This document shows, in pieces, positions 2,616 to 38,032 of a stretch of DNA of 64,000 nucleotides. The notes under the pieces were generated by a model, which was not told where the DNA came from, did not search any database, and worked only from the letters and a program-made list of their open reading frames with translations. The stretch comes from Rufibacter sp. DG15C (GTDB taxonomy: Bacteria > Bacteroidota > Bacteroidia > Cytophagales > Hymenobacteraceae), in NCBI RefSeq assembly GCF_001577755.1, contig NZ_CP010776.1, positions 496,001 through 560,000 on the forward strand. Reading direction: 5' to 3'. Every line of letters begins with the position of its first letter. Within the stretch, counting starts at the first letter, position 1. The position numbers and the translations under genes were made by a program.

Positions 2616-3116
2616 ATGGCACAATCCTCTAACCTAGCCCATCTAAAAGCACTCCTCACGGAAGAAGACACTTGGACCATGGCCGAGGGTGAAAGCAGTG
2701 GCACGCCGTTCTTCCTTCGGTTCAGGCCCCACTTGCAGGACTTCGTCAACACCCAGCAATACACCAAGCGCCTCATCATCCTCTGGAACTACACCTCAGA
2801 AGACGATTATTTGTTCCCCACGCCAGAAGACGCAGATGTGATGGCCGATGTGGAGGAAAAGCTTATAGAAAAACTGGAGGAGGAGGCTCAAACCGTCTTG
2901 GCCTTTGTCTACACGGGCCAGGATAGAAGAGAATGGCATTGGTACACTACAGATGTTGCCGCCGCTCAAGAACAACTGAACGAGGCTCTACATCAATTTG
3001 ACCAACTGCCCTTAGAACTGACCGTTGAAGAGGACGCTGACTGGGACCAATATCTTTCTATTCTGGAAAGCATGGAGGATGCAGAGGACGAAGAAGCCTC
3101 CGAGGAAGAAAAATAG
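2616..3116 (+). CDS. DUF695 domain protein
   Basis: A 166-residue soluble protein. The central block with RLIILWNYT, PTPEDADVMADVEEKL, LAFVYTGQDRREWHWYT and the DWDQYL ending is the DUF695 signature; the last fifteen residues are a run of Asp and Glu. The family has no established biochemical function. It begins 21 nt after the esterase stop and is probably the third gene of the cdd transcript. A palindromic repeat begins 8 nt after its stop codon. Confidence 0.85.
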   Translation: MAQSSNLAHLKALLTEEDTWTMAEGESSGTPFFLRFRPHLQDFVNTQQYTKRLIILWNYTSEDDYLFPTPEDADVMADVEEKLIEKLEEEAQTVLAFVYTGQDRREWHWYTTDVAAAQEQLNEALHQFDQLPLELTVEEDADWDQYLSILESMEDAEDEEASEEEK

Positions 3117-3124
3117 ATAGCCTT

Positions 3125-3162
3125 CGTTTTTGGCTTATTTTCCAGAAAACAGGCCAAAAACG
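3125..3162. repeat. 38-bp palindromic repeat, copy 1
   Basis: Near-consensus copy between two convergent genes, 8 nt from the DUF695 stop and 4 nt from the VOC stop. Flanking CTT/AAG bases extend the stem to 3122-3165, so a transcript from either strand can form a long hairpin. Confidence 0.85.
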
Positions 3163-3166
3163 AAGA

Positions 3167-3562
3167 TTAGTCTTCGCCCCAGATGCCGGGCATGATAATC
3201 TCTAGCAGATGCTGGTCTGGATCTCTGAAGTAGCAGGACTTTCGGCCGTGCGGCCAAATCTCTTCATGTTCCATGGGCACGTCTGACCGCAACAGCATTT
3301 CTTTCCAAGCCTCATAGTCTTCTGGCTGGCATTCAAAAGCCAGATGCTGGTGGCCAGACCCGAAGTGCGGCGGCAGACCATGGTTGTCTCGGCTCACCTC
3401 AGGGTCAAAGCATAACAGCACGGAACTTCCTACCCTAAAAAAAACATAACGACCTGGCATCTGCCCAATGATGGGTAAATGCAAAATGTTGGCGTAGAAA
3501 TGCGTGGTGCGGTGCAGGTCACGCACGTACAGACAGGTCTCTTTGATTTGGGTGAACTCCAT
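3167..3562 (-). CDS. VOC family (glyoxalase/fosfomycin-resistance fold) protein
   Basis: A 131-residue vicinal-oxygen-chelate protein with the two beta-alpha-beta-beta-beta repeats (one near residues 3-50, the other near 68-125). Metal-ligand candidates are the His residues in SGHQHLAF and the Glu in HLLEII. The position that is usually the first metal His is a Cys here (ETCLYV), so metal binding and activity are uncertain. The ATG at 3562 is preferred over an upstream TTG. It is probably a small-molecule lyase or dioxygenase-fold protein; calling it a resistance enzyme would go beyond the sequence. Confidence 0.75.
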   Translation of the reverse strand: MEFTQIKETCLYVRDLHRTTHFYANILHLPIIGQMPGRYVFFRVGSSVLLCFDPEVSRDNHGLPPHFGSGHQHLAFECQPEDYEAWKEMLLRSDVPMEHEEIWPHGRKSCYFRDPDQHLLEIIMPGIWGED

Positions 3563-3610
3563 ACGCAAGGCTTTCCTATTTCAACGAGAGCCCAATTCTA
3601 AAAGATGCTT

Positions 3611-3648
3611 CGTTTTTGACCTCTTTTCCAGAAAACAGCCCAAAAACG
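3611..3648. repeat. 38-bp palindromic repeat, copy 2
   Basis: Lies directly next to the hairpin at 3649-3683. On the minus strand the hairpin is followed by CGTTTTT from this repeat, so the repeat supplies the U-tract of a terminator for the SDR gene. Confidence 0.8.
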
Positions 3649-3683
3649 GCAACACCTCCCAGGGAAGTCCTAAGAGGTGTTGC
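3649..3683 (-). terminator. Terminator hairpin downstream of the SDR gene
   Basis: GCAACACCTC pairs with GAGGTGTTGC around a 15-nt loop. On the minus strand the stem is followed by CGTTTTTGG, contributed by the adjacent palindromic repeat. Confidence 0.7.
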
Positions 3684-3733
3684 TATGAAGCTAGTCCTTG
3701 AATAGTAAGGGTTGGCGGTTTGTTCCCCTAAAA

Positions 3734-4492
3734 CTACAGCTGCTTGTGCATGACCGTGGAAGAAGCCTGGGCGGCGGGCAGAATCAGAACTTCGGCTAGG
3801 TTTACGCGGCTTGGGCGAGTGACCATGAAATGAATCAGGTCGGCGATGTCTTCGGGCTGAAGCGCCTCGTAGCCTTTGTAGACCGTGGCGGCGCGTTCCT
3901 TATCGCCTTTGAATCTCACCTCAGAGAACTCAGTCTCAACGGCACCGGGATTGATTTCAGAGACTTTCACGCCTTCTTGTACCAAGTCAATGCGCATGGC
4001 TTTGGAGAGCGCGTCTACGGCAAATTTGCTGGCGCAGTACACGTTTCCGTTGGCGTAGGCTTCTTGCCCGGCAATGGACCCGATGTTGATGATGTGCCCG
4101 CTTTTGCGCGCCACCATGCCCGGCAAGACTGCCTTGGTCACATAAAGTAAGCCTTTCACGTTGATGTCCAGCATGGCGTCCCAGTCGTCTACATCACCAG
4201 ACTGGATAGGCGCCAGGCCGTGTGCGTTGCCGGCGTTGTTAATGAGCAGGTCAATGGTAGACCAGTCAGACGGTAGGCTAACAATGGCTTCCTTCACCGC
4301 TACTTTGTCCCGCACGTCAAAGGCCAGGGTTTGAATGGTGGCTTCGCCGAACTGGTTGACTAGTTCTTGCAGACGCTCTACGCGGCGGCCGGCGGCAATG
4401 ACCCTGAAACCGTTTTGAGCCAAGACCATGGCGGTGGCTCTGCCAATGCCCGAACTGGCACCAGTAATGAGGGCTGTTTTCTTCTGTGACAT
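3734..4492 (-). CDS. SDR-family NAD(P)-dependent oxidoreductase
   Basis: A 252-residue classical short-chain dehydrogenase. It has the cofactor motif TGASSGIG (residues 10-17), NNAG, a catalytic Ser in NIGSIAG and the YCASK catalytic Tyr/Lys pair. The sequence resembles YdfG-type 3-hydroxy acid / serine dehydrogenases, but the substrate cannot be read from the sequence. The ATG at 4492 is chosen; an in-frame TTG at 4513 would overlap the preceding gene. It starts 13 nt after the porT stop and is likely co-transcribed with porT and menG. Confidence 0.88.
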   Translation of the reverse strand: MSQKKTALITGASSGIGRATAMVLAQNGFRVIAAGRRVERLQELVNQFGEATIQTLAFDVRDKVAVKEAIVSLPSDWSTIDLLINNAGNAHGLAPIQSGDVDDWDAMLDINVKGLLYVTKAVLPGMVARKSGHIINIGSIAGQEAYANGNVYCASKFAVDALSKAMRIDLVQEGVKVSEINPGAVETEFSEVRFKGDKERAATVYKGYEALQPEDIADLIHFMVTRPSRVNLAEVLILPAAQASSTVMHKQL

Positions 4493-4505
4493 AGTGGAGG
4501 ACAGA

Positions 4506-5279
4506 TTACTCAAAGTTGAGGTAGAGCGTGATGGTATTGCTGCTCATGCGCTGAATACTGTTGTTAAAGTTGTTGTCAACGGGCTTGTGCAAGTTGGTGA
4601 TGCCTCTGGAGAAGCGCAGCTCTGGCGCAAACTTAAAGAACGGATAGAACATGTCCAGCCCCACGCCAAAGTCCACGCTAAAGTCTGAGGTGCCCACCTG
4701 CAGAATCTCATTGTCCTTCTTCTGGCCACCTACCACAATGGAGGGTTTTACACCGGCAATAAAGTACATCTGGGTGTTCTTGCGGCGCAGCGACTCATAC
4801 TTTAACAGCACCGGGAACTCCCCTGTAAAGGTGTTGATTTCCTGCAGCACCGCACCGTCCTCAGAGGGCTCAGTGTTGCCGGGTGCCGTTACGTCTCCTT
4901 TGTACTCCACAGACCGGCTGTAGTAGCCCACGCCCGGCTGCAGTCTAATGAGAAAATCCGGCGACAGGCGGTAAGAGCCAATGAAGTTCACGTTGAAGCC
5001 TATGCCCATCTTGGCATTCATGGAGATGTCATCGCTGAGATCTGCCGTTTTGAGGCGGTCTACATAGCTATTTGAATGCTCCAGCTGGTACCAGGACGTG
5101 TTCATGGCCAGAGAGAAGCCCCATCTAAAGGTGCGGCTCTCGTAGCCTTGCAGGTTTTCGCCTTTGATGGTTTTCTGGGCCAAGACCGGTTGTAACGCAC
5201 TGGTGAGCACCACTGCCAAGGCCAGGGTTATTTTATGCCTGTGTAAATAGAGCTTATGCCAAAAGTAAGTGAATGCCAT
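4506..5279 (-). CDS. porT: PorT family outer membrane beta-barrel protein (type IX secretion)
   Basis: A 257-residue protein with a signal peptide (hydrophobic stretch about residues 17-33, cleavage after VLA-Q) followed by a beta-rich barrel with alternating polar and hydrophobic strands and an aromatic C-terminus (LYLNFE). PorT/SprT is required for type IX secretion and gliding in Bacteroidota, and its gene is often next to ubiE/menG, as here. The first 52 nt overlap the end of menG, an unusually long overlap, and no later Met precedes the signal peptide. The assignment rests on the N-terminal pattern, barrel features and synteny; a generic porin is the alternative. Confidence 0.75.
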
Positions 5280-5950
5280 TTTGTGTCTTTAAAACCAATT
5301 CTTTGGAAGATGGAAAGGAAATCATTGCCGTCTGGGAACGCCTGCACCGACTCGGGCAGGTACGTGTAAGCGGCATTGTCCTTAGAAATCAGCTTGCCAA
5401 AAAGCGGTAGTATGTTTTTGAAGTAAAAATTATAGCCTTGTTTCATGGGGAAGCTCTGGGGCTTGGAGAACTCCAGAATGACCACCATGCCGCCCGGCTT
5501 CAAGACCCTGTACATCTCAGAGAGGCCCTTCTCCAGGTTCTCAAAGTTACGCACCCCAAACGCCACCGTGATGGCGTCAAAGTGGTTGTCTGGGAACTGG
5601 ATATTTTCTGAGTCTCCTACGTGCAACTGAATCAAATGGCTGAGCCCGCGCTTCTGAATTTTTTCGCGGCCCACGGCCAGCATGCCCTCAGAGATGTCAA
5701 TGCCCGTGATCTGCTGGGGCTTTAAACGAACTGCTTCCAGCGCAAAGTCTCCCGTGCCGGTGGCAATGTCCAGAATGGTCTTGGGTTGCGCCTTCTCCAG
5801 TAATTTTACGGCTTTCTTGCGCCATATAATATCTATGCCGGCGCTCAGGAAATGGTTGAGGAAATCATACCGCTTGGCAATGCTGTTAAACATGTTGGCC
5901 ACCTGGGTCTTCTTGCCCTCGTTTTGATCTTTATACGGTACTACTGACAT
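5228..5950 (-). CDS. menG: Demethylmenaquinone methyltransferase (UbiE/MenG)
   Basis: A 240-residue class I SAM-dependent methyltransferase that performs the last C-methylation in menaquinone synthesis. The SAM motif [14 protein letters not shown] (near residue 60), the GIDISEGML loop, the FGVRNF block and the [13 protein letters not shown] strand are all characteristic of UbiE/MenG. Bacteroidota make menaquinone rather than ubiquinone, so MenG is the expected role. Its 3' end overlaps porT by 52 nt in another frame. A TAGCTTTG -7 box lies 26 nt upstream. Confidence 0.95.
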
Positions 5951-5975
5951 TGACTTCTCATCATGTTATGGAGGG

Positions 5976-5983
5976 CAAAGCTA
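5976..5983 (-). promoter_or_regulatory. -7 promoter element of menG-porT-SDR
   Basis: The minus strand reads TAGCTTTG (TAnnTTTG consensus), 26 nt before the menG ATG. No convincing -33 box was seen. Confidence 0.5.
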
Positions 5984-6034
5984 CTATGCTTTAACTACAT
6001 TTCCTGTAATATGTTGTACAGCGCCCGTCCCAAT

Positions 6035-6077
6035 AAAAACGCCGCCCCGGCCATTGCTGGTCTGGGGCGGCGTTTTT
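6035..6077. terminator. GC-rich terminator hairpin after the PorE-like gene
   Basis: AAAAACGCCGCCCC pairs perfectly with GGGGCGGCGTTTTT around a 15-nt loop. It separates the PorE-like gene from the menG promoter. Its plus-strand 3' arm shares the CGTTTTT bases with the neighbouring palindromic repeat. Confidence 0.8.
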
Positions 6078-6108
6078 GGGCTGGTTTCTGGATTTTAGGC
6101 CAAAAACG
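6071..6108. repeat. 38-bp palindromic repeat, copy 3
   Basis: Ends 6 nt from the stop codon of the PorE-like gene and overlaps the 3' arm of the GC-rich hairpin at 6035-6077. Confidence 0.75.
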
Positions 6109-6113
6109 GAAGC

Positions 6114-8060
6114 TTATTTCTGGTCAGCTCCTTTGATGATGGTGAACTCTGTGCGGCGGTTCAGCTGCATGTTCTCAGCAGAGGTGTTTGGCGCAATTGG
6201 TCTGCGCTCACCGTAGCTTCTAGAGATCAAGCGGTTGGCCGGTACTCCTGCTTTGATCAGGTAGTCATACGCAGCGTTGGCTCTGTTCTCACCTAACAGC
6301 ATGTTGTAGGAATCTGGCATTCTAGAGTCTGTGTGACCATCAACAGAGATACGCAGGTCTGGGTTGGCTTTCATCACTTTCACTAAGTTATCCAGCTCTC
6401 TGATAGACTCTGGGCGTAAATCCCACTTGTCTGTGTCAAAGTAGATTTTCTTGAAAGCATAAGAAGCAACGTCAATGCTAGAGCCTCCGGCAAAGTCAAT
6501 GTAGAAATCCTTCTCCACCACGGTAGTGTCTACCAAAGACAAAGGAACTTCAAACTGTTCTGTGGCAATGTTAGCACCGTCTTTAGAAAGCGTAACCGTG
6601 TAAGGACGATTTGACAAAACAGTCACCTCATAGTTACCAGAGTCTGGCTTGGTCACGTCACGGTACTCCAGAGGTGTGCTAGCCGCAGTCTTACCGGTGA
6701 ACACCAATTCCACCCCAGGGATGATAGAAGAGTCACGCAAGCTGTACACATGACCGCGTACAATGGCGTTCTTGATGTAGTTGATGGTGTAGATATCCTT
6801 TTCACCGTAACCGCCCATGCGGTAAGAAGACAAGTAGGCCAAGCTACCATCGCCGCTTAAGCGGTAATAGGTGTCATCATCTGGCGTGTTGATAGGGTAG
6901 CCAATGTTCACTGGACGGCTCCAACGGCGGGCCACCGTGTCATACTTGATGGTGAAGATGTCATAGCCACCCATGGTGGTGTGACCGCGTGAGCTGAAGA
7001 ACATAGTCAAACCATCTGGCGTGAAATAAGGGCTATCCTCATCAAACTCAGTGTTTACGCCGTTCCCGAAGTTCTTAGGCTCGCCCCACTCACCGTTGCC
7101 ATCACGCTTAGCGTAGTAGATGTCCAGGTCTCCGTTTTCAGAGAAACGGTTGGTAGAGAAATAGATAGTTTGACCATCTGCCGTAACAAAGGCATCACTT
7201 TCAAATTCTCTGGAGTTGATGTTGCGGTTCAGTTTGCTTGGCTTGCCCCAGTCACCCCCTTCACGGCTGGTTACAAAGATGTCACCGTTTTCATCCTGGC
7301 GGTAAAGCAACAATTTAGAGTCATTGTCAATCAACTGGATAGAGGCATCATGGCCGGTACCGTTCAACACACCGCTCAAGGCGCGTGGCGTCTCCCAAGT
7401 GTCTGGTCCTAGACGGCGGGTCTCAAAGATGTCTTCAAAGTATTCTCCGTCATCTGCTTCCTTGCCACCTGTCACATTCTGCCCACGTGAGGTGAACAAA
7501 AGGTAGTTGTTGTCTTTAGAGATAACCGGGCTGTGCTCAGAGAAAGGGGTGTTTACCGTTGGGCCCAGGTTTTTCACAAACACGTCCTTCTGGTTGGCTA
7601 CTTCTTTCTTGGCGTTACGCGCGTGTTGAATCAACAAAGCAGCTTGCTCTTTGCCTTCTTCGTCACGCTTGCCCAGGGTTTTCTGGTATTCTTGCGCGTG
7701 CTGAATGGCCTTGTCAAACTCATAGTTCACCAGGTCCACGCGGCCCAGCCAGTACAGGACATCCTCTTCTACCTTCGGCTTAAGAGAATAGGCTTTGTAG
7801 ATGTACTCGCTTGCCTTCTCCTTGTCAAAGGCGATTAAACTGATACCAGCTCTGTACAAGGCCTTGGCATTGTCTGGCTCACGCTCCAATGCGCGCTCAT
7901 AGAAAGGAAGCGCGGAACGGAAGTTGGTCTGGTTGAATAATTTGTCTCCGCTTCTGATCAATTGCCGCGTGCTCTGTGCCATAGCCGCAGTAGAGGCCAG
8001 GACAAAAAGCAGAAGGGCAAGTAAAGAAGATTTGAACAACCGCTTGTCTAAGTGATCCAT
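6114..8060 (-). CDS. TPR / WD40-like propeller / OmpA protein, PorE-like
   Basis: A 648-residue secreted protein. From the ATG at 8060 (the frame runs back to 8180, but the signal peptide starts here) the order is: signal peptide ending MAQ (about residue 28), TPR region (about 30-150), PD40 beta-propeller repeats such as DEDSPYFTPDGLTMFFSS (about 165-405), a carboxypeptidase-regulatory-like beta domain (about 425-505) and a C-terminal OmpA peptidoglycan-binding domain (VDGHTDSRMPD, NRRTEF). This is the architecture and size of PorE, the type IX secretion component that anchors the machine to the cell wall, although PD40-OmpA proteins with other roles exist. The location close to porT supports the idea but does not prove it. 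Confidence 0.8.
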   Translation of the reverse strand: MDHLDKRLFKSSLLALLLFVLASTAAMAQSTRQLIRSGDKLFNQTNFRSALPFYERALEREPDNAKALYRAGISLIAFDKEKASEYIYKAYSLKPKVEEDVLYWLGRVDLVNYEFDKAIQHAQEYQKTLGKRDEEGKEQAALLIQHARNAKKEVANQKDVFVKNLGPTVNTPFSEHSPVISKDNNYLLFTSRGQNVTGGKEADDGEYFEDIFETRRLGPDTWETPRALSGVLNGTGHDASIQLIDNDSKLLLYRQDENGDIFVTSREGGDWGKPSKLNRNINSREFESDAFVTADGQTIYFSTNRFSENGDLDIYYAKRDGNGEWGEPKNFGNGVNTEFDEDSPYFTPDGLTMFFSSRGHTTMGGYDIFTIKYDTVARRWSRPVNIGYPINTPDDDTYYRLSGDGSLAYLSSYRMGGYGEKDIYTINYIKNAIVRGHVYSLRDSSIIPGVELVFTGKTAASTPLEYRDVTKPDSGNYEVTVLSNRPYTVTLSKDGANIATEQFEVPLSLVDTTVVEKDFYIDFAGGSSIDVASYAFKKIYFDTDKWDLRPESIRELDNLVKVMKANPDLRISVDGHTDSRMPDSYNMLLGENRANAAYDYLIKAGVPANRLISRSYGERRPIAPNTSAENMQLNRRTEFTIIKGADQK

Positions 8061-32803: not shown

Positions 32804-34234
32804 TTAGTCAGCAGCCCCTAACCGGCCGGCGGCCCATTGCAGGTAGTATTTTGCTTTGCCGTATTTGGTTTTGAGTTCATAGAGCTTCAGCTGCTGGTTC
32901 AGCAGGTTCATCTCGCGCGTATTGACCAGGAACAGGGAGCTTTCGCCGTTCTCAAACCGTTGCTGCTCCCCGCGTTGTAGCAGGCGGCTGTTGGCAATAA
33001 TCTGCTCTTGCAGGTTGATTTGGTCTTCTAGCTGCTGGCGTTCATTGTAGGCGGCCTGCACCAGGTTAAGGCTCTCCCGCCTGGTCTGCTCCAATTCCAT
33101 TTGCGCGGCGTTAATTTTGAGCCGCGTTAGCTGCAGCTTGCCCCGCTCCTGCCGCAGAAACAGGGGTACGCTGAAGCTGGCGCCCAGCTTGTAGTTGTTG
33201 GACAGGTAGCGCTCCTCCAGCCATTGTTCACTTGCCGTACCGCCGGGGCCAATCAGGTTGTATTCCAGGTTCAGCTTGGGCAGTAGTTTGCTTTGGGTAA
33301 ACCGCCGGTCTACCTCCAGTTGCCGGAGCTTTATTTGTAGCTTGGCCACGTCTGGGTGCCGTTCTTTGGCAAGGGTCAGCAGTGCGGCAAGGTCTGTTTC
33401 TGAGAGCGGCTCCAGGTCAGTGCCCAGCAAGGAAGGCACCACTCCTTTTGGCAGTTCCAGGGGTGTATTGTCCTGTCCCCACAGAAAATTAGACACCAGC
33501 AGGGCCGCGTTCTGGCTCTCCATCTGGGCTTGCCTTAGCAGCGCCAGGCGGTTCTGAGCTTCAATCTGCGCTTCTACAGAGTCAATGGCTGCCAGGTCGC
33601 CTTGGCGCACCCTTTCTTGCACGGCCTGTAAACGCACGGTGGCCAACTGCAGACTTTGGGCCAGTAATTGGCTGCGGTGGTAGGCATAGGCCCAGTCCCA
33701 GTAGGTTTTGGCGGCCTCCAGCAGCAGCTTGTTGATGTGTTTGACGCGGTCTGCCTCTGCCAGTTCTTGGGCTTGCTTTGCCTGTTGCAGGGTGGCTCTG
33801 CGCTCATCAATCAACAGGCCCTGCCCGATGGGCACCGAGATGCCTACATATTGGAGTCCCTGGCGGGGAGTGATGTTCTCGCCGTTCACATTGATGCCGC
33901 TATTGCGCTCGTAGCCCGCTTTTACCTCGCCAATCCAGACCGGCACTCTTAAAACATTGTCCCACAGGGTGAAGTAGTTTTTACCGTCCAGTTCCTTCTG
34001 ATAGAACTTAGAAGCCACCACCGGGTCAAAGGCACTTCTGGCAATGCGCAGCTCCTGCCGGGCCTGCTCGGAGAATTGGTTGGCCTGCCTCACTACCGGA
34101 TGATGTACTGCCATCTGGGTCAGCAGATCCTGGATAGTGAAGACCGAGGTGCTGTCACTGGCCAGGCTAAATCTGCTGACCAGGAGCAGCGCCCAGCTAA
34201 GACCCAAGCCAAGGATGTAGGAGCGCCTTCTCAT
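32804..34234 (-). CDS. TolC-family outer membrane efflux protein
   Basis: A 476-residue outer membrane factor. From the ATG at 34234 it has a signal peptide (ILGLGLSWALLLVSRFSLAS) and two long periplasmic coiled-coil repeats (Gln/Ala/Leu-rich, about residues 60-280 and 290-450), the TolC arrangement. It is translationally coupled to the HlyD gene through an ATGA overlap. Together with the ABC protein it would form a trans-envelope type I-like exporter. The frame is open further upstream, but that part lies inside hlyD. Confidence 0.88.
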   Translation of the reverse strand: MRRRSYILGLGLSWALLLVSRFSLASDSTSVFTIQDLLTQMAVHHPVVRQANQFSEQARQELRIARSAFDPVVASKFYQKELDGKNYFTLWDNVLRVPVWIGEVKAGYERNSGINVNGENITPRQGLQYVGISVPIGQGLLIDERRATLQQAKQAQELAEADRVKHINKLLLEAAKTYWDWAYAYHRSQLLAQSLQLATVRLQAVQERVRQGDLAAIDSVEAQIEAQNRLALLRQAQMESQNAALLVSNFLWGQDNTPLELPKGVVPSLLGTDLEPLSETDLAALLTLAKERHPDVAKLQIKLRQLEVDRRFTQSKLLPKLNLEYNLIGPGGTASEQWLEERYLSNNYKLGASFSVPLFLRQERGKLQLTRLKINAAQMELEQTRRESLNLVQAAYNERQQLEDQINLQEQIIANSRLLQRGEQQRFENGESSLFLVNTREMNLLNQQLKLYELKTKYGKAKYYLQWAAGRLGAAD

Positions 34235-35598
34235 TTCTGCTCTTTCTCTGGGGTTTTGCCCGCTTCTTCTTGCTGTCCGTTCACCTTGCCCACATAGTCC
34301 GGCGGAAACGCGTTCAACTGCCGCCACAACTCATACCAGATAGGCACATCCTGGAGCATGACCCAGCCATAGGCCCCAGACCCTACCCGCACCGGAGCTG
34401 GCCATGGCCCTTCCTTTGGATCTGGAACCACCAGAATGCGGTACTTGCCCTGGCTGTCAATGTTGTCAATGACGGCCACCACGCCGCCAAACGTCCCAAA
34501 GCCCATGTTGGGCCAACCGGAGAAGACCAGGGCCGGCCATCCCTCAAACTGTAACCGCACCTGGCGGCCCACCTCCAACAAGGGAACATCCATGGGCCGC
34601 ACATACAACTGTACTGCCAACTGCGGATTGGCGGGCATGATGCTGCAGACTGGTTCGCCCTCTTTCAGGGTTTCGCCAATGCCGGCCTTCAAGGCGCGCA
34701 CCACGTACCCGTCTTGCGGGGCCGTTATCTGGTAAAAGGAACTCCTGATCTGGGTGTTGGCATACTCGTTTTCCATCTTGGAGATTTCTCCGCGGCTATC
34801 ATTCACATAGGCCAGGGTGGCATTCAGCTCAGAACGGGCCTTGGCAATTTTATCCTGATACTCGGCCTGCAGGGAGGAGAGCTCTAGGCGGGCATTCTGC
34901 TTTTCATTGCGACTGATGCTCACCTTATTTTGCACGCTCTGCCACTTGGCTTGCACCTCCTGGAATTTAAGGCGCCGGCTCTCCAACTCTGTGAGCGACT
35001 TTAAGCCCTGCTGGTACAGTTTCTCCTGCCGGGCGTACTGGGCTTGGGCCACTTCAAACTCAGCCCGCATGGCCACTACATCTGCGCTGTCACTCTGTAC
35101 CTTCAAGTTGGCCTGCAGCACCTTGTTGCGGGCTTTCTGCAAACTAAACCGCAGTCCCTGCTGCATGGCGGCAATTTGCTTGGCGAGGGCTTCGGCTTTG
35201 GCTTGGGTGGACTCCAGGCTGCCTTCTTTGGCCTGCAGCTGCTCTTTGATTCGGCCCAGTAGTTGAGGGTCAAAGTATTTCTCCTTCACCTCAGAGAGGA
35301 CTACCAAGGTGTCCCCTTTTTTTACCTTCTGTCCCTCCTGCACCTGCCAGCTCTCAATGCGCCCGGCAATGGTGCTGTGCACGGTCTGGGGTCTATCTTG
35401 CGGCTGTAACGTAGTCACTGCCCCGGTGGAGCGGATGTTCTGGGTCCAGGGCAACCACAAGCCGATGAATAACAGGACAAAAAAGCCGACGGCCCAGTAG
35501 GCCAATACTTTTGCCAGCCTGGGCTTGGTCACTAGCTTAAAGGAATTGAACTGTTCCCATTCCTCTTGCACGGGATGAGGTGTTATCTGCTTTGCCAT
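34231..35598 (-). CDS. HlyD-family membrane fusion protein
   Basis: A 455-residue adaptor subunit. One transmembrane helix (about residues 32-50: AYWAVGFFVLLFIGLWL) leads into a lipoyl/barrel-sandwich domain (STIAGRIESWQVQEGQKVKKGDTLVVL), a long coiled coil (about 110-290) and the returning half-lipoyl motif (TAPQDGYVVRALKAGIGETL). It bridges the inner-membrane ABC protein and TolC. The start overlaps the stop of the ABC gene by one base (TAATG), and its own stop overlaps the TolC start. Confidence 0.88.
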   Translation of the reverse strand: MAKQITPHPVQEEWEQFNSFKLVTKPRLAKVLAYWAVGFFVLLFIGLWLPWTQNIRSTGAVTTLQPQDRPQTVHSTIAGRIESWQVQEGQKVKKGDTLVVLSEVKEKYFDPQLLGRIKEQLQAKEGSLESTQAKAEALAKQIAAMQQGLRFSLQKARNKVLQANLKVQSDSADVVAMRAEFEVAQAQYARQEKLYQQGLKSLTELESRRLKFQEVQAKWQSVQNKVSISRNEKQNARLELSSLQAEYQDKIAKARSELNATLAYVNDSRGEISKMENEYANTQIRSSFYQITAPQDGYVVRALKAGIGETLKEGEPVCSIMPANPQLAVQLYVRPMDVPLLEVGRQVRLQFEGWPALVFSGWPNMGFGTFGGVVAVIDNIDSQGKYRILVVPDPKEGPWPAPVRVGSGAYGWVMLQDVPIWYELWRQLNAFPPDYVGKVNGQQEEAGKTPEKEQK

Positions 35599-37322
35599 TA
35601 CACAAGCTTGTTAAATTCTGCGGTGACTGCTTCTTCTCCAGTGACTACCTGGCTTACCCGCCCCTGCTGCACCAGCACCACTCTGGTGCAGAGGCGCATG
35701 ACGTTTTTCTCGTTTGAGATCACCACCACAGTCCAAGGCATGTCTGGATGGAGGAGTCTTTCTGCAATCCGGGCCCGCAAGGCTTTGTTCACCAAGGGCA
35801 GGAAATTGTCCAGCAACAGAAGTTTTGGCTTTCTGGCAATGCTGCGGGCTAAGGCCAGCCGCTGGGACACCCCATTGGGCATGCCCGGTGAGTTACTATG
35901 GATCAGGGTATAAAGACCTTCTGGCTTACTTTGCACATAATCACTTAGTTCTACTGTCTGCAGGGCCCACAAGACTTCTTCTAAGGTAACATCCGGCTGG
36001 CCCAGGGTAATGTTCTCCAGGATGGTTCCCTCAAACAAAAGGGCTGGCAGCAGGTAGAATCCTATCTGCTCATGCAGTGCCTCTGGCAGGTAATCCTTCA
36101 AGGACAAGTCATTAAAGACCACTGTTCCTCCATATTCTGTATGAAGGCCTGCCAGAATTTGCAACAGCGTGGACTTGCCTCCTTCTTCTGGGCCGGTGAG
36201 GCACAGCTTTTCGCCAGTGGTTATAGTCAGGTCCATTCCTTGCAAGACTGGCGTCTGCGCGCCTGCATACTTGAATGATAAACTTTTCACCTGCACAGAC
36301 ACGCCCTGGTAGGTAGAGGGCATTTCTCTGGTGAGCCCTTTGGTTTCTTCTAAGGGCAGGTCCGTCACGCCACCCAGTTTCTCTAGGCTGGTCAAAACGT
36401 CATACACCACATCCAGCTTCACCAGCAGCTTCTCCACGGCAGTGATGATGAGGATGATGATGATCTCTGAGGCCACAAACTGCCCCAGGTTGATTTCCTG
36501 GTTTAACAATAGAAAGCTACCCATGAGGAGCAAGCCAGCCGTGATCACCGTTTTAAAGCCAATGAAGCCAATGTATTGGGTGATGAGCACTTTAAAGTGG
36601 GCGCCTCTGGCCTTCAGGTAGCCGCTGGTGTAATAGTCGGTCTTCTCCAGGGACAGCCGTTCATGGGACGCAGATTTAAAAATGACAAGGTTCTGGGCCA
36701 GTTCTTCCAACCAGTGCACCAAGCGGTACTTGTACTTTGACTCCTCCAGACTGGTGCGCATGCCCTTTGGACTGGTAATCCGAATGATGAGGATAAGCAA
36801 CACCACCAGCACCAACCCAAAGAGGATAAAGTACGGATGGTAGAAGGACAGCAGAATTACCCCGAACAAAATCTGGATGGCCGCCGCAGAGAAATCCGTC
36901 AGCATTTTGGCCAGGCCTTTCTGCAGGGAGATCACATCAAAGAACCGGTTCATCAACTCTGGCAGGTTGTGCTCAGCCATCTGGTTGCTCTTTAGGTGAG
37001 TGAGCTGCGTAGTGAACTGAAAAGCCTTGGTTGCGAAGAGGCGCTGCTGGATATGCTCCACCAGATACAACTGCATCACCTGCAAGCCACCCACCACCAG
37101 CACCCCCACAATGATTAGGAGGATGAGGACGGTGACCGAGGTGACCATCTGCCCACTAGAGACAAACCCAATCAGACTCTGGATACCCAAAGGCAAGGAC
37201 AGGCTGACCAATCCAGAGAAAACGGCATACAGGTAAATGTACCCTATGACCTTGTGCTCAGAGGAGAGCAGCTCTAAAAACCGCTGGAACGGCGTTGGCC
37301 GGGTAGTGTGCTGTGAGGGCAT
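35598..37322 (-). CDS. ABC exporter (transmembrane + ATP-binding) with degenerate ATPase motifs
   Basis: A 574-residue half-transporter: six membrane helices (about residues 25-310) and a C-terminal nucleotide-binding domain, without the peptidase domain of many type I exporters. Walker A (GPEEGGKST, 377-385) is intact, but the other catalytic elements are not: the Q-loop Gln is Leu425 (YLLPALLF), the LSGGQ signature is MPNGV (481-485), the catalytic Glu after Walker B is Asn506 (LLLDNFL) and the H-loop His is Asn537. ATP hydrolysis is therefore doubtful unless it is partnered or non-canonical. The gene heads the HlyD-TolC genes and follows the TetR gene by 5 nt. Confidence 0.85.
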   Translation of the reverse strand: MPSQHTTRPTPFQRFLELLSSEHKVIGYIYLYAVFSGLVSLSLPLGIQSLIGFVSSGQMVTSVTVLILLIIVGVLVVGGLQVMQLYLVEHIQQRLFATKAFQFTTQLTHLKSNQMAEHNLPELMNRFFDVISLQKGLAKMLTDFSAAAIQILFGVILLSFYHPYFILFGLVLVVLLILIIRITSPKGMRTSLEESKYKYRLVHWLEELAQNLVIFKSASHERLSLEKTDYYTSGYLKARGAHFKVLITQYIGFIGFKTVITAGLLLMGSFLLLNQEINLGQFVASEIIIILIITAVEKLLVKLDVVYDVLTSLEKLGGVTDLPLEETKGLTREMPSTYQGVSVQVKSLSFKYAGAQTPVLQGMDLTITTGEKLCLTGPEEGGKSTLLQILAGLHTEYGGTVVFNDLSLKDYLPEALHEQIGFYLLPALLFEGTILENITLGQPDVTLEEVLWALQTVELSDYVQSKPEGLYTLIHSNSPGMPNGVSQRLALARSIARKPKLLLLDNFLPLVNKALRARIAERLLHPDMPWTVVVISNEKNVMRLCTRVVLVQQGRVSQVVTGEEAVTAEFNKLV

Positions 37323-37327
37323 AAGAT

Positions 37328-38032
37328 TCAGGGGTTGACCGCAGGTGGAACAGGCAAAGAGACCAGAGCAGAGAAGGCAAGGTGATGCAGAAAGCTGACT
37401 AAACTGGTTTCACCTGAATTCATGGACCGAACTTCTGTCAAAGAAGGCAGGTGCTCGGCAAAGAAGGTATGCTTGCGGGAGGCCTCAAACAGTGTACTGA
37501 CCAAGGCATGCGGAAAAGGGTACTGTGGGTTTATCTCCAGCACCACCAAGGCCATCTTATGGCAGATGCCTTTGTAGTCCTGAAACAGGCCGTCTTTGTT
37601 GTTGGAGTCCACCTCTTTGGTTAGGTAGGCCTTGGACGCTTCCAGGATAACCATCCGGGACAGGGCATCTACATCTACCTGCGGGGTCAGTTCATCACTT
37701 ACCTGGCTTTGGGCCAGAATCTTAATAAAGATCTCAAGTTTCTCTTTAGCGCTGGTTACGTTGTGCGTGTGGTAACTAAGGCGGTAATCCAGCCAGTTCC
37801 AATACCAGGATACCAGGTACAGCAGCAGCTTGTGCTTGTTTTCAAAATACCGGTACACAGAAGCCTCAGTAGAAGAGATGCTCTGCGCCAGCTTCTTGAA
37901 CGTGAAGTGCTCAAAGCCTACTTCGTCTATCAGCTTGATGCTCTCCCTCACCAGGACCTTTCCCAACTCTGTCTGTTCTGGGTCCCTGAGGAAAAGCTTG
38001 TCGTTTAGCTTTACATTAATTACGGTGCTCAC
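37328..38032 (-). CDS. TetR/AcrR-family regulator
   Basis: A 234-residue regulator with an N-terminal helix-turn-helix (FTFKKLAQSISSTEASVYRYFENKHKL-type block, about residues 44-72; HTH core TEASVYRYF) and a larger C-terminal ligand/dimer domain. It is the first gene of the transcript that encodes the ABC-HlyD-TolC exporter, so it probably represses the operon in response to exported substrate or envelope signals. GTG at 38032 is used as the start. No operator repeat was identified with confidence. Confidence 0.85.
   Translation of the reverse strand: MSTVINVKLNDKLFLRDPEQTELGKVLVRESIKLIDEVGFEHFTFKKLAQSISSTEASVYRYFENKHKLLLYLVSWYWNWLDYRLSYHTHNVTSAKEKLEIFIKILAQSQVSDELTPQVDVDALSRMVILEASKAYLTKEVDSNNKDGLFQDYKGICHKMALVVLEINPQYPFPHALVSTLFEASRKHTFFAEHLPSLTEVRSMNSGETSLVSFLHHLAFSALVSLPVPPAVNP

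Follow-up and report, generated by a model that had tools for sequence, protein, structure and literature searches.

A widespread Bacteroidota family of ABC-exporter proteins with a predicted inactive, and in some members missing, ATPase domain

An ATP-binding cassette (ABC) exporter gene of Rufibacter sp. DG15C encodes a protein that likely does not hydrolyse ATP. The gene (35598–37322, minus strand, 574 codons) lies in a 64,000-nt stretch of contig NZ_CP010776.1 (GCF_001577755.1, positions 496,001–560,000), called the window below. Judged from its homologues, it is one ATPase-dead member of a widespread and real family. Alignments and substitution rates show the catalytic set to be broken across a whole clade; in a sub-clade the entire ATPase domain is gone, and membrane domain, HlyD-type adaptor and TolC-type channel are kept under purifying selection. 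Together these findings suggest a pump powered by something other than ATP. The odds seem evenly balanced that the protein serves in the inner membrane of a tripartite exporter under TetR control, made up of an ABC-fold dimer, HlyD and TolC, and that it no longer uses ATP hydrolysis.

Motifs of the window protein were read by alignment to six other ABC exporters of the same genome. The Q-loop Gln is replaced by Leu425, the LSGGQ signature by MPNGV, the catalytic Glu by Asn506 (after Asp505) and the H-loop His by Asn537. All four replacements had been called in the original prediction, made from the letters of the window, and were borne out when the residues were rechecked. Its claim of an intact Walker A did not hold, so that the observation as a whole was partly confirmed. 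The motif reads GPEEGGKST, in which the second conserved Gly (380) is Glu and Lys383 is kept; unlike in the window, this Lys is Arg in 10 of 10 Rufibacter and Sabulibacter relatives from a species-wide scan. Across 14 scored motif positions, six are kept (Gly377, Gly382, Lys383, Ser384, Gly484 and Asp505) and eight are replaced (Gly380, the Q-loop Gln, four signature positions, the catalytic Glu and the His). The accompanying idea that ATP is not turned over is plausible from the motifs; the intact Walker A with which it was paired falls away. An AlphaFold model built on a 58-sequence alignment (mean predicted local distance difference test score, pLDDT, 83.3) superposes nearly full-length on PCAT1 (8voz, TM-score 0.90) and HlyB (8dck, 0.91), so the motifs sit at the positions first assigned. 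A reading in which they are misplaced and lie elsewhere in the alignment is ruled out by this superposition together with the alignment to the six canonical exporters.

The losses are shared by relatives. Loci with both domains (164) gave 150 distinct ATPase domains for scoring once 14 identical rows were dropped; clade membership was read from the tree described below for included rows and assumed for near relatives. The dead clade holds 134 rows, including the window gene and four loci from other classes of the phylum (L146, L156, L162 and L170). Its sister clade holds 16, namely 14 loci outside the window's class and two from Methylothermaceae metagenome-assembled genomes (MAGs). Walker A Lys, catalytic Glu and H-loop His are jointly kept in 0/134 dead-clade domains versus 13/16 in the sister clade. 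Singly, the dead clade retains the canonical residue at position 383 (Lys) in 109 of 134 rows, 505 (Asp) in 36, 506 (Glu) in 12, 537 (His) in one, 425 (Gln) in six and 484 (Gly) in 18; the sister clade keeps Lys and Asp in 16/16, Glu in 15/16 and His in 13/16. As read from these alignments, the broken Lys-Glu-His set of the window protein exceeds chance and is common to the whole clade. The expectation that other Bacteroidota relatives would share the substitutions thus proved true at large scale, the Lys-Glu-His set being lost in 134/134 distinct domains. The aligned Q-loop Gln is missing from 16/16 sister-clade rows, and their signatures are eroded as well; the site therefore started to decay before catalysis was lost.

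Eight dead-clade loci (L050, L053, L058, L060, L063, L064, L066 and L193) have no recognisable Walker A. In the extreme case, L193 (genome G434; 3118–4773), the ATPase domain is full in length and scores 116 bits with the profile, and the Walker A position reads YEHPLFVRT. It is quite improbable that the family hydrolyses ATP slowly, with neighbouring Asp or Glu residues replacing the catalytic Glu and Lys-bearing members retaining weak activity. Such turnover would fit the 12 dead-clade domains with Glu at 506, the one with His at 537 and the Glu-Asp or Asp-Asn pairs that Walker B holds in many members. However, signature and H-loop are lost too, the Rufibacter relatives lack the Walker A Lys, the eight loci above lack a recognisable motif and 67 loci lack the domain.

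The species-wide scan used the window protein against one genome per species (84,980 species) and returned 73 loci; all but L073, a weak match over its ATPase part, were taken as family members, making 72. Profile A1, built from the family membrane domain, has matches in 318/390 sampled genomes of the window's order and in 77/296 of the phylum, and no stop codons fall inside the matched stretch among the order-level matches listed. For another 104 full-length loci longer flanks were read: 99 have HlyD no more than 700 nt away, and inside 5 kb TolC occurs at 99 and a TetR gene at 65; some partner misses are contig ends (L053), and L072 has HlyD directly downstream by eye. The order TetR-ABC-HlyD-TolC recurs across the phylum, in keeping with the earlier view that the operon is maintained. 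No published description of this exporter family was recognised in the open-access literature, subscription papers and preprints being outside the search.

Ratios of nonsynonymous to synonymous substitution rates (dN/dS) were taken from six pairs with membrane-domain dS <1 (L001-L055, L001-L004, L004-L055, L006-L007, L002-L055 and L012-L019), dS being saturated in most window comparisons and several others. They are 0.003–0.05 for the membrane domain and 0.035–0.10 for the dead ATPase domain. Membrane domains of ATPase-free relatives gave 0.017–0.067 in 11 of 14 pairs listed, the other three having saturated dS. These ratios indicate that the membrane domains are under strong purifying selection and that the dead ATPase domain is constrained, less than the membrane domain. 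Over 132 dead-clade relatives, mean identity to the window protein is 54% for the membrane domain but 33% for the ATPase domain, and the ATPase domain is the less window-like of the two in 135/135 relatives missing Glu and/or His (the sister clade supplies three of these). The pattern is reversed in a canonical exporter of the same genome (membrane 68%, ATPase 76%; ATPase domain higher in 20/24).

That the gene is a relic, a decaying pseudogene carried along by its operon, is hardly credible. Lost catalytic motifs, an ATPase domain that diverges faster than the membrane domain and one split gene could be cited for it; dN/dS of 0.003–0.10 and presence in 318/390 genomes of the order, with no stops among the matches listed, speak against it. 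Pseudogenes and sequencing errors are ruled out by dN/dS and open frames across hundreds of genomes. The split gene, L279 (G177; 2962–6978), belongs to the window's family; its first 129 profile positions and the remainder lie ~1.8 kb apart in two open frames. The second part retains the ATPase domain, and HlyD and TolC are intact behind it.

A short membrane protein from which the ATPase domain is cleanly missing, with HlyD and TolC directly behind it, is encoded at 67 loci; Spirosoma, Dyadobacter and Hymenobacter are among the genera. The 67 comprise 48 loci (46 distinct) and 19 further ones, L070 (Spirosoma luteum) and L130 being taken as the same gene since their contigs are equally long. 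A part of the loci was fetched for short frames, so 48/212 is no frequency. HlyD lies within 150 nt and TolC is present in 48/48 and 19/19, and the frame ends 1–10 residues past the membrane model. In two Spirosoma species the frame stops just past the membrane domain, and in one of the loci (L067) HlyD starts ~50 bases on. In the Spirosoma family, with 74 genomes listed, 43/80 members have open frames of 334–402 aa. The window's own family has frames of 337–409 aa at 24/68 places in 67 genomes, 23 of them in Hymenobacter (the genus being assigned through a sequence identical to that of a named locus), where 23 of the 42 genomes with a match carry the ATPase-free form (by frame length; L175 and L260–L278 were read). 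Two genomes of a third family also have it (L176 and L177).

The AlphaFold model of the Spirosoma protein L067 (mean pLDDT 92.1, predicted TM-score 0.85) matches exporter membrane domains, with TmrAB (Z 26.7 over 320 residues, 2.6 Å) and HlyB (Z 26.3 over 324 residues, 2.8 Å) tied. It has an N-terminal helix (13–22), short helices at both coupling positions (114–117 and 214–219) and no extra helices. TmrAB is among the best structural matches of the window model as well.

A profile of dead ATPase domains (A4) was searched in 13 ATPase-free genomes and in two control genomes that keep the domain. No displaced ATPase domain was found in the 13 genomes, although this rests on the matches listed and a weakly similar stand-alone ATPase could escape; the best score was 170 bits, in exporters of 594–637 aa, versus 379 and 342 bits in the controls. 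Ordinary exporters score ~165 bits in the control genomes too. Since the 13 genomes reach at most 170 bits, and only in ordinary exporters, the domain has not simply moved. Candidate ATPases near family genes were also rejected. A 286-aa open reading frame (ORF) 3 kb from the ATPase-free gene of L203 has a canonical-looking Walker A, Walker B and signature and was judged unrelated. ORFs of ~1000 aa beside L184, L186 and L188, considered as a second ABC gene, have intact motifs and from their architecture are presumably UvrA, not partners.

These searches bear on an ATPase acting in trans, a reading in which the complex draws its power from a protein encoded elsewhere, either a canonical ABC half or a stand-alone ATPase. 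The window genome does encode six other full-length exporter proteins, and full-length and ATPase-free copies occur together in Dyadobacter-like genomes. Yet a partner gene is absent from the operon, the A1 profile finds one family member in the window genome, and none of this family's ATPase domains appear in the 13 ATPase-free genomes, among the matches listed. Because a single chain has lost the signature, the Walker B Glu and the H-loop alike, a heterodimer of the window protein with a normal half would form no consensus ATP site. The second ABC partner raised in the original prediction is therefore unlikely. Three Dyadobacter-like genomes (G139, G349 and G073; L216, L222, L234, L219, L233 and L225) have two or three copies each, with full-length and ATPase-free forms side by side; mixed dimers are therefore conceivable there.

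A quick tree search, with Shimodaira-Hasegawa-like approximate likelihood ratio test (SH-aLRT) support only, covered 121 membrane domains, obtained by thinning 195 distinct ones at ~80% identity; the 195 remain after dropping identical rows and stretches <280 residues. We placed the root on the clade keeping Glu and His, outside the dead clade. The tree splits that clade from the rest with support 100, although Glu-and-His rows are not one side of a branch, L178, L187 and L188 of the clade each missing a residue. The 21 ATPase-free rows form one clade (SH-aLRT 100) nested among ATPase-dead rows, with L141 and L135 of the Spirosoma family as full-length neighbours. L175 alone represents the window family's ATPase-free loci, the 19 further loci being left out. 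The simplest reading would be one loss of catalysis, later one loss of the domain, and transfer of the ATPase-free form between families. L175–L177 nest inside the Spirosoma-family clade, which suggests horizontal transfer of the operon.

Columns of 136 full-length rows missing Glu and/or His were compared with those of 46 ATPase-free rows. Seven of the 10 columns losing most conservation (196, 204, 207, 210, 214, 215 and 227) fall within the cytoplasmic loop formed by transmembrane helix (TM) 4, coupling helix 2 and TM5; the stretch 196–227 was defined after the ranking was seen, so the value of 4.6e-6 is descriptive. The first coupling loop showed no such relaxation in the ATPase-free rows. 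In known exporters the TM4-TM5 coupling loop of one subunit docks into its partner's ATPase domain. Relaxation of this loop in ATPase-free rows argues that the dock fell into disuse upon domain loss, the opposite of what a retained partner ATPase predicts. In the window protein the dead domain probably still docks.

Conserved charged residues of the membrane helices outlast the loss of the ATPase domain. Residue 286, in TM6, is Glu in all but one of the 195 rows (window included), the exception having Asp, and is non-acidic in 6/6 other exporters of the same genome. Glu297, Asp143 and Glu89 are acidic in nearly all 195 rows.

The mechanism we propose takes the membrane dimer to pass cargo to HlyD-TolC without ATP hydrolysis. 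Energy would most likely come from an ion gradient, by analogy with SbmA, the membrane domain of MsbA (MsbA-MD) and LmrA. The dead ATPase domain of the window protein would persist as a docked remnant, structural or regulatory in role and as before coupled to the second coupling helix. The cargo may be a small toxic or lipid-like molecule, as the TetR gene hints. Glu286 in the relatives keeping Glu and His could be a pre-adaptation akin to the partial glutamate ladder of YddA. Put more specifically, and with slightly less confidence than an even call, the protein would be an ABC-fold secondary transporter of SbmA-independent origin: catalysis was lost from an ATP-driven, HlyB-like ancestor, one lineage shed the whole domain, and cargo is expelled through HlyD-TolC by an ion gradient. 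On this account the steps would still be visible in extant relatives, which are ATPase-competent, dead or ATPase-free.

Several points weigh against such a pump. Walker A Lys is kept in 109/134 dead-clade domains, where nucleotide binding may still matter; the 67 loci without the domain are evidence that the system overall can dispense with ATP binding. Conservation in the sister clade is intermediate (pairwise membrane 48%, ATPase 43%; ATPase domain higher in 27/78 pairs), so dead members are not alone in conserving the membrane domain better; what is peculiar to them is the contrast with the canonical exporter. Glu286 is present in 13/13 rows keeping Glu and His, so it did not arise with ATPase loss, and it may be structural. 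Ion coupling in MsbA and LmrA was seen in engineered truncations, and in one LmrA experiment given in excerpts of PMC6155054 the truncated protein, LmrA-MD, gave no current. Passive gating would fit the sequence data equally well.

Such gating is the principal rival, and the protein may be a regulated channel, as the original prediction also proposed. The membrane domain would be no more than a docking platform and gated pore, and hydrophobic or amphipathic cargo that is already in the membrane or at its surface would follow its gradient into HlyD-TolC. Where present, the dead ATPase domain would gate by binding nucleotide without turnover. A conduit of this kind accounts for loss of catalysis and of the entire domain; the retained Lys is compatible with nucleotide sensing, and the ATPase domain is under purifying selection in the six pairs (dN/dS 0.035–0.10). 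The strictly conserved charged helix residues, however, suggest more than a pore, and an ungated inner-membrane pore would leak ions. We regard it as doubtful but well within consideration, and prefer the ion-driven transporter.

The window gene is the second of four tightly packed minus-strand genes in the order TetR, ABC, HlyD, TolC (Table 1). The TetR end and the ABC start codon are 5 nt apart, the ABC stop and the HlyD start share one base, and TolC is next downstream; this spacing confirms the TetR-led, HlyD- and TolC-coupled operon predicted at the outset. In Pfam the ABC protein matches ABC_membrane (PF00664, residues 28–295, E 1.2e-12) and ABC_tran (360–506), both above the gathering score. 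The top five NCBIfam matches are bacteriocin or type I exporters (NHLM, LssB, bacteriocin ABC, HlyB), each far under the cut-off, as are all 25 families listed. The protein has no C39 or C39-like N-terminal domain.

Table 1. Coordinates of the operon genes and of the features of the ABC-exporter protein within the window
Feature	Coordinates	Strand	Basis
TetR-type regulator, first operon gene	37328..38032	-	Pfam TetR_N E 3.5e-7
ABC-exporter protein, degenerate ATPase domain, 574 aa	35598..37322	-	Pfam; AlphaFold mean pLDDT 83.3
Six-helix membrane domain, residues 10-328, conserved family core	36339..37295	-	64% mean column identity, alignment of 58
Predicted ATPase-dead nucleotide-binding-domain fold, residues 340-574	35601..36305	-	ABC_tran; fold match PCAT1/HlyB
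Walker A GPEEGGKST, Gly380 to Glu	36168..36194	-	Alignment
Q-loop position, Leu425	36048..36050	-	Alignment
Signature position MPNGV (residues 481-485)	35868..35882	-	Alignment
Walker B Asp505 and Asn506 (catalytic Glu position)	35805..35810	-	Alignment
H-loop position, Asn537	35712..35714	-	Alignment
Second coupling helix, residues 212-217 in model, within stretch 196-227	36672..36689	-	AlphaFold model, conservation comparison
Glu286, TM6	36465..36467	-	Acidic in 195/195 distinct membrane domains
HlyD-type periplasmic adaptor, 455 aa	34231..35598	-	Pfam HlyD_3, HlyD_D23; NCBIfam type_I_hlyD 93 bits, below cut-off
TolC-type outer-membrane channel; start codon uncertain, listed GTG overlaps HlyD	32804..34327	-	Pfam OEP E 1.1e-36

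Family members vary in several other respects. A TetR gene on the opposite strand lies within 5 kb of 20/48 ATPase-free loci and of 0/19 of the further set. Comparison of L130–L134 and L195–L207 with L208–L232, L175–L177 and L260–L278 indicates that regulation changed within the ATPase-free clade. Many Cytophagales members (L126, L127, L128, L129, L135 and L136; L126 at 5416–7587) have frames of ~707–780 aa with an extra N-terminal ~155–180 residues, in the place of the C39-like domain of HlyB; the stretch has no Pfam match in L126 and L135, the two scanned. The Methylothermaceae MAG loci (L061 and L072), for which contamination is possible, form a gammaproteobacterial branch with near-canonical motifs. 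L072 has the ABC-HlyD-TolC set; its TetR position is taken by an ORF of 399 aa to which no function is assigned.

The family is natural and widespread, with stepwise loss of the ATPase, an export machine that is kept and relatives whose ATPase apparently works. It offers matched natural proteins for asking what the ATPase does. If the ion-driven ABC-fold transporter exists, it adds a further way of powering tripartite efflux. Several hundred Bacteroidota genes, likely annotated, we assume, as 'ABC transporter ATP-binding protein', are probably not ATPases. To our knowledge, evidence that an ATPase-free ABC membrane half can do work comes mainly from engineered MsbA and LmrA truncations and from SbmA.

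The type I secretion proteins HlyB, PCAT1 and LssB resemble the window protein in near-full-length fold and in HlyD/TolC operon partners, whereas the window protein has broken ATPase motifs and lacks their C39 or C39-like N-terminal domain. Heterodimeric exporters such as TmrAB and TM287/288 likewise have degenerate motifs in a normal exporter fold. They retain one consensus ATP site; the window protein has no partner gene, and no consensus site can form. Within TmrAB, TmrB is the degenerate half, according to part of a review that gives the energised inner-membrane parts of tripartite systems as ABC, resistance-nodulation-division (RND) and major facilitator superfamily (MFS) transporters (PMC8277102). 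A TetR-TolC efflux operon of Flavobacterium johnsoniae, in the portion of PMC10197871 available, was dropped as a precedent because its genes differ (TetR, TolC, adaptor and efflux permease). Excerpts of PMC4979069 report that the isolated membrane domain of MsbA can still transport ethidium when a pH gradient is present, and those of PMC6155054 that proton and ethidium transport by LmrA needs E314 in TM6. MsbA-MD and LmrA-MD, for which these papers report movement of drugs or ions with ion gradients, are ATPase-free membrane domains like those described here; the truncation here is natural and extends across genera.

The closest precedent is SbmA/BacA (SbmA-like peptide transporters, SLiPT, beside the full ABC proteins YddA/BclA/Rv1819c), likewise an exporter-like dimer. 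No SbmA-family Pfam match was obtained for the window protein (E up to 0.001) or for three ATPase-free relatives (E up to 0.01). SbmA is not among the best 50 structural matches of either model, which carries no weight either way. As far as we know, SbmA has no HlyD/TolC partners. Excerpts of PMC13316013 describe SbmA as a proton-driven, ATPase-less, ABC-like membrane dimer thought to derive from full ABC transporters by loss of the ATPase domain, as its authors propose, with YddA holding part of the SbmA glutamate ladder. The same excerpts class SbmA as an importer that has additional TM0 helices but neither coupling nor elbow helices (PMC13316013). In the present family, by contrast, ATPase-free proteins are found only in the 67 relatives and the window protein keeps its dead ATPase domain. 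Elbow and coupling helices remain and TM0 is absent in the predicted L067 structure, the genes stand in an HlyD-TolC operon, and every stage survives, long-lived dead ATPase domains among them.

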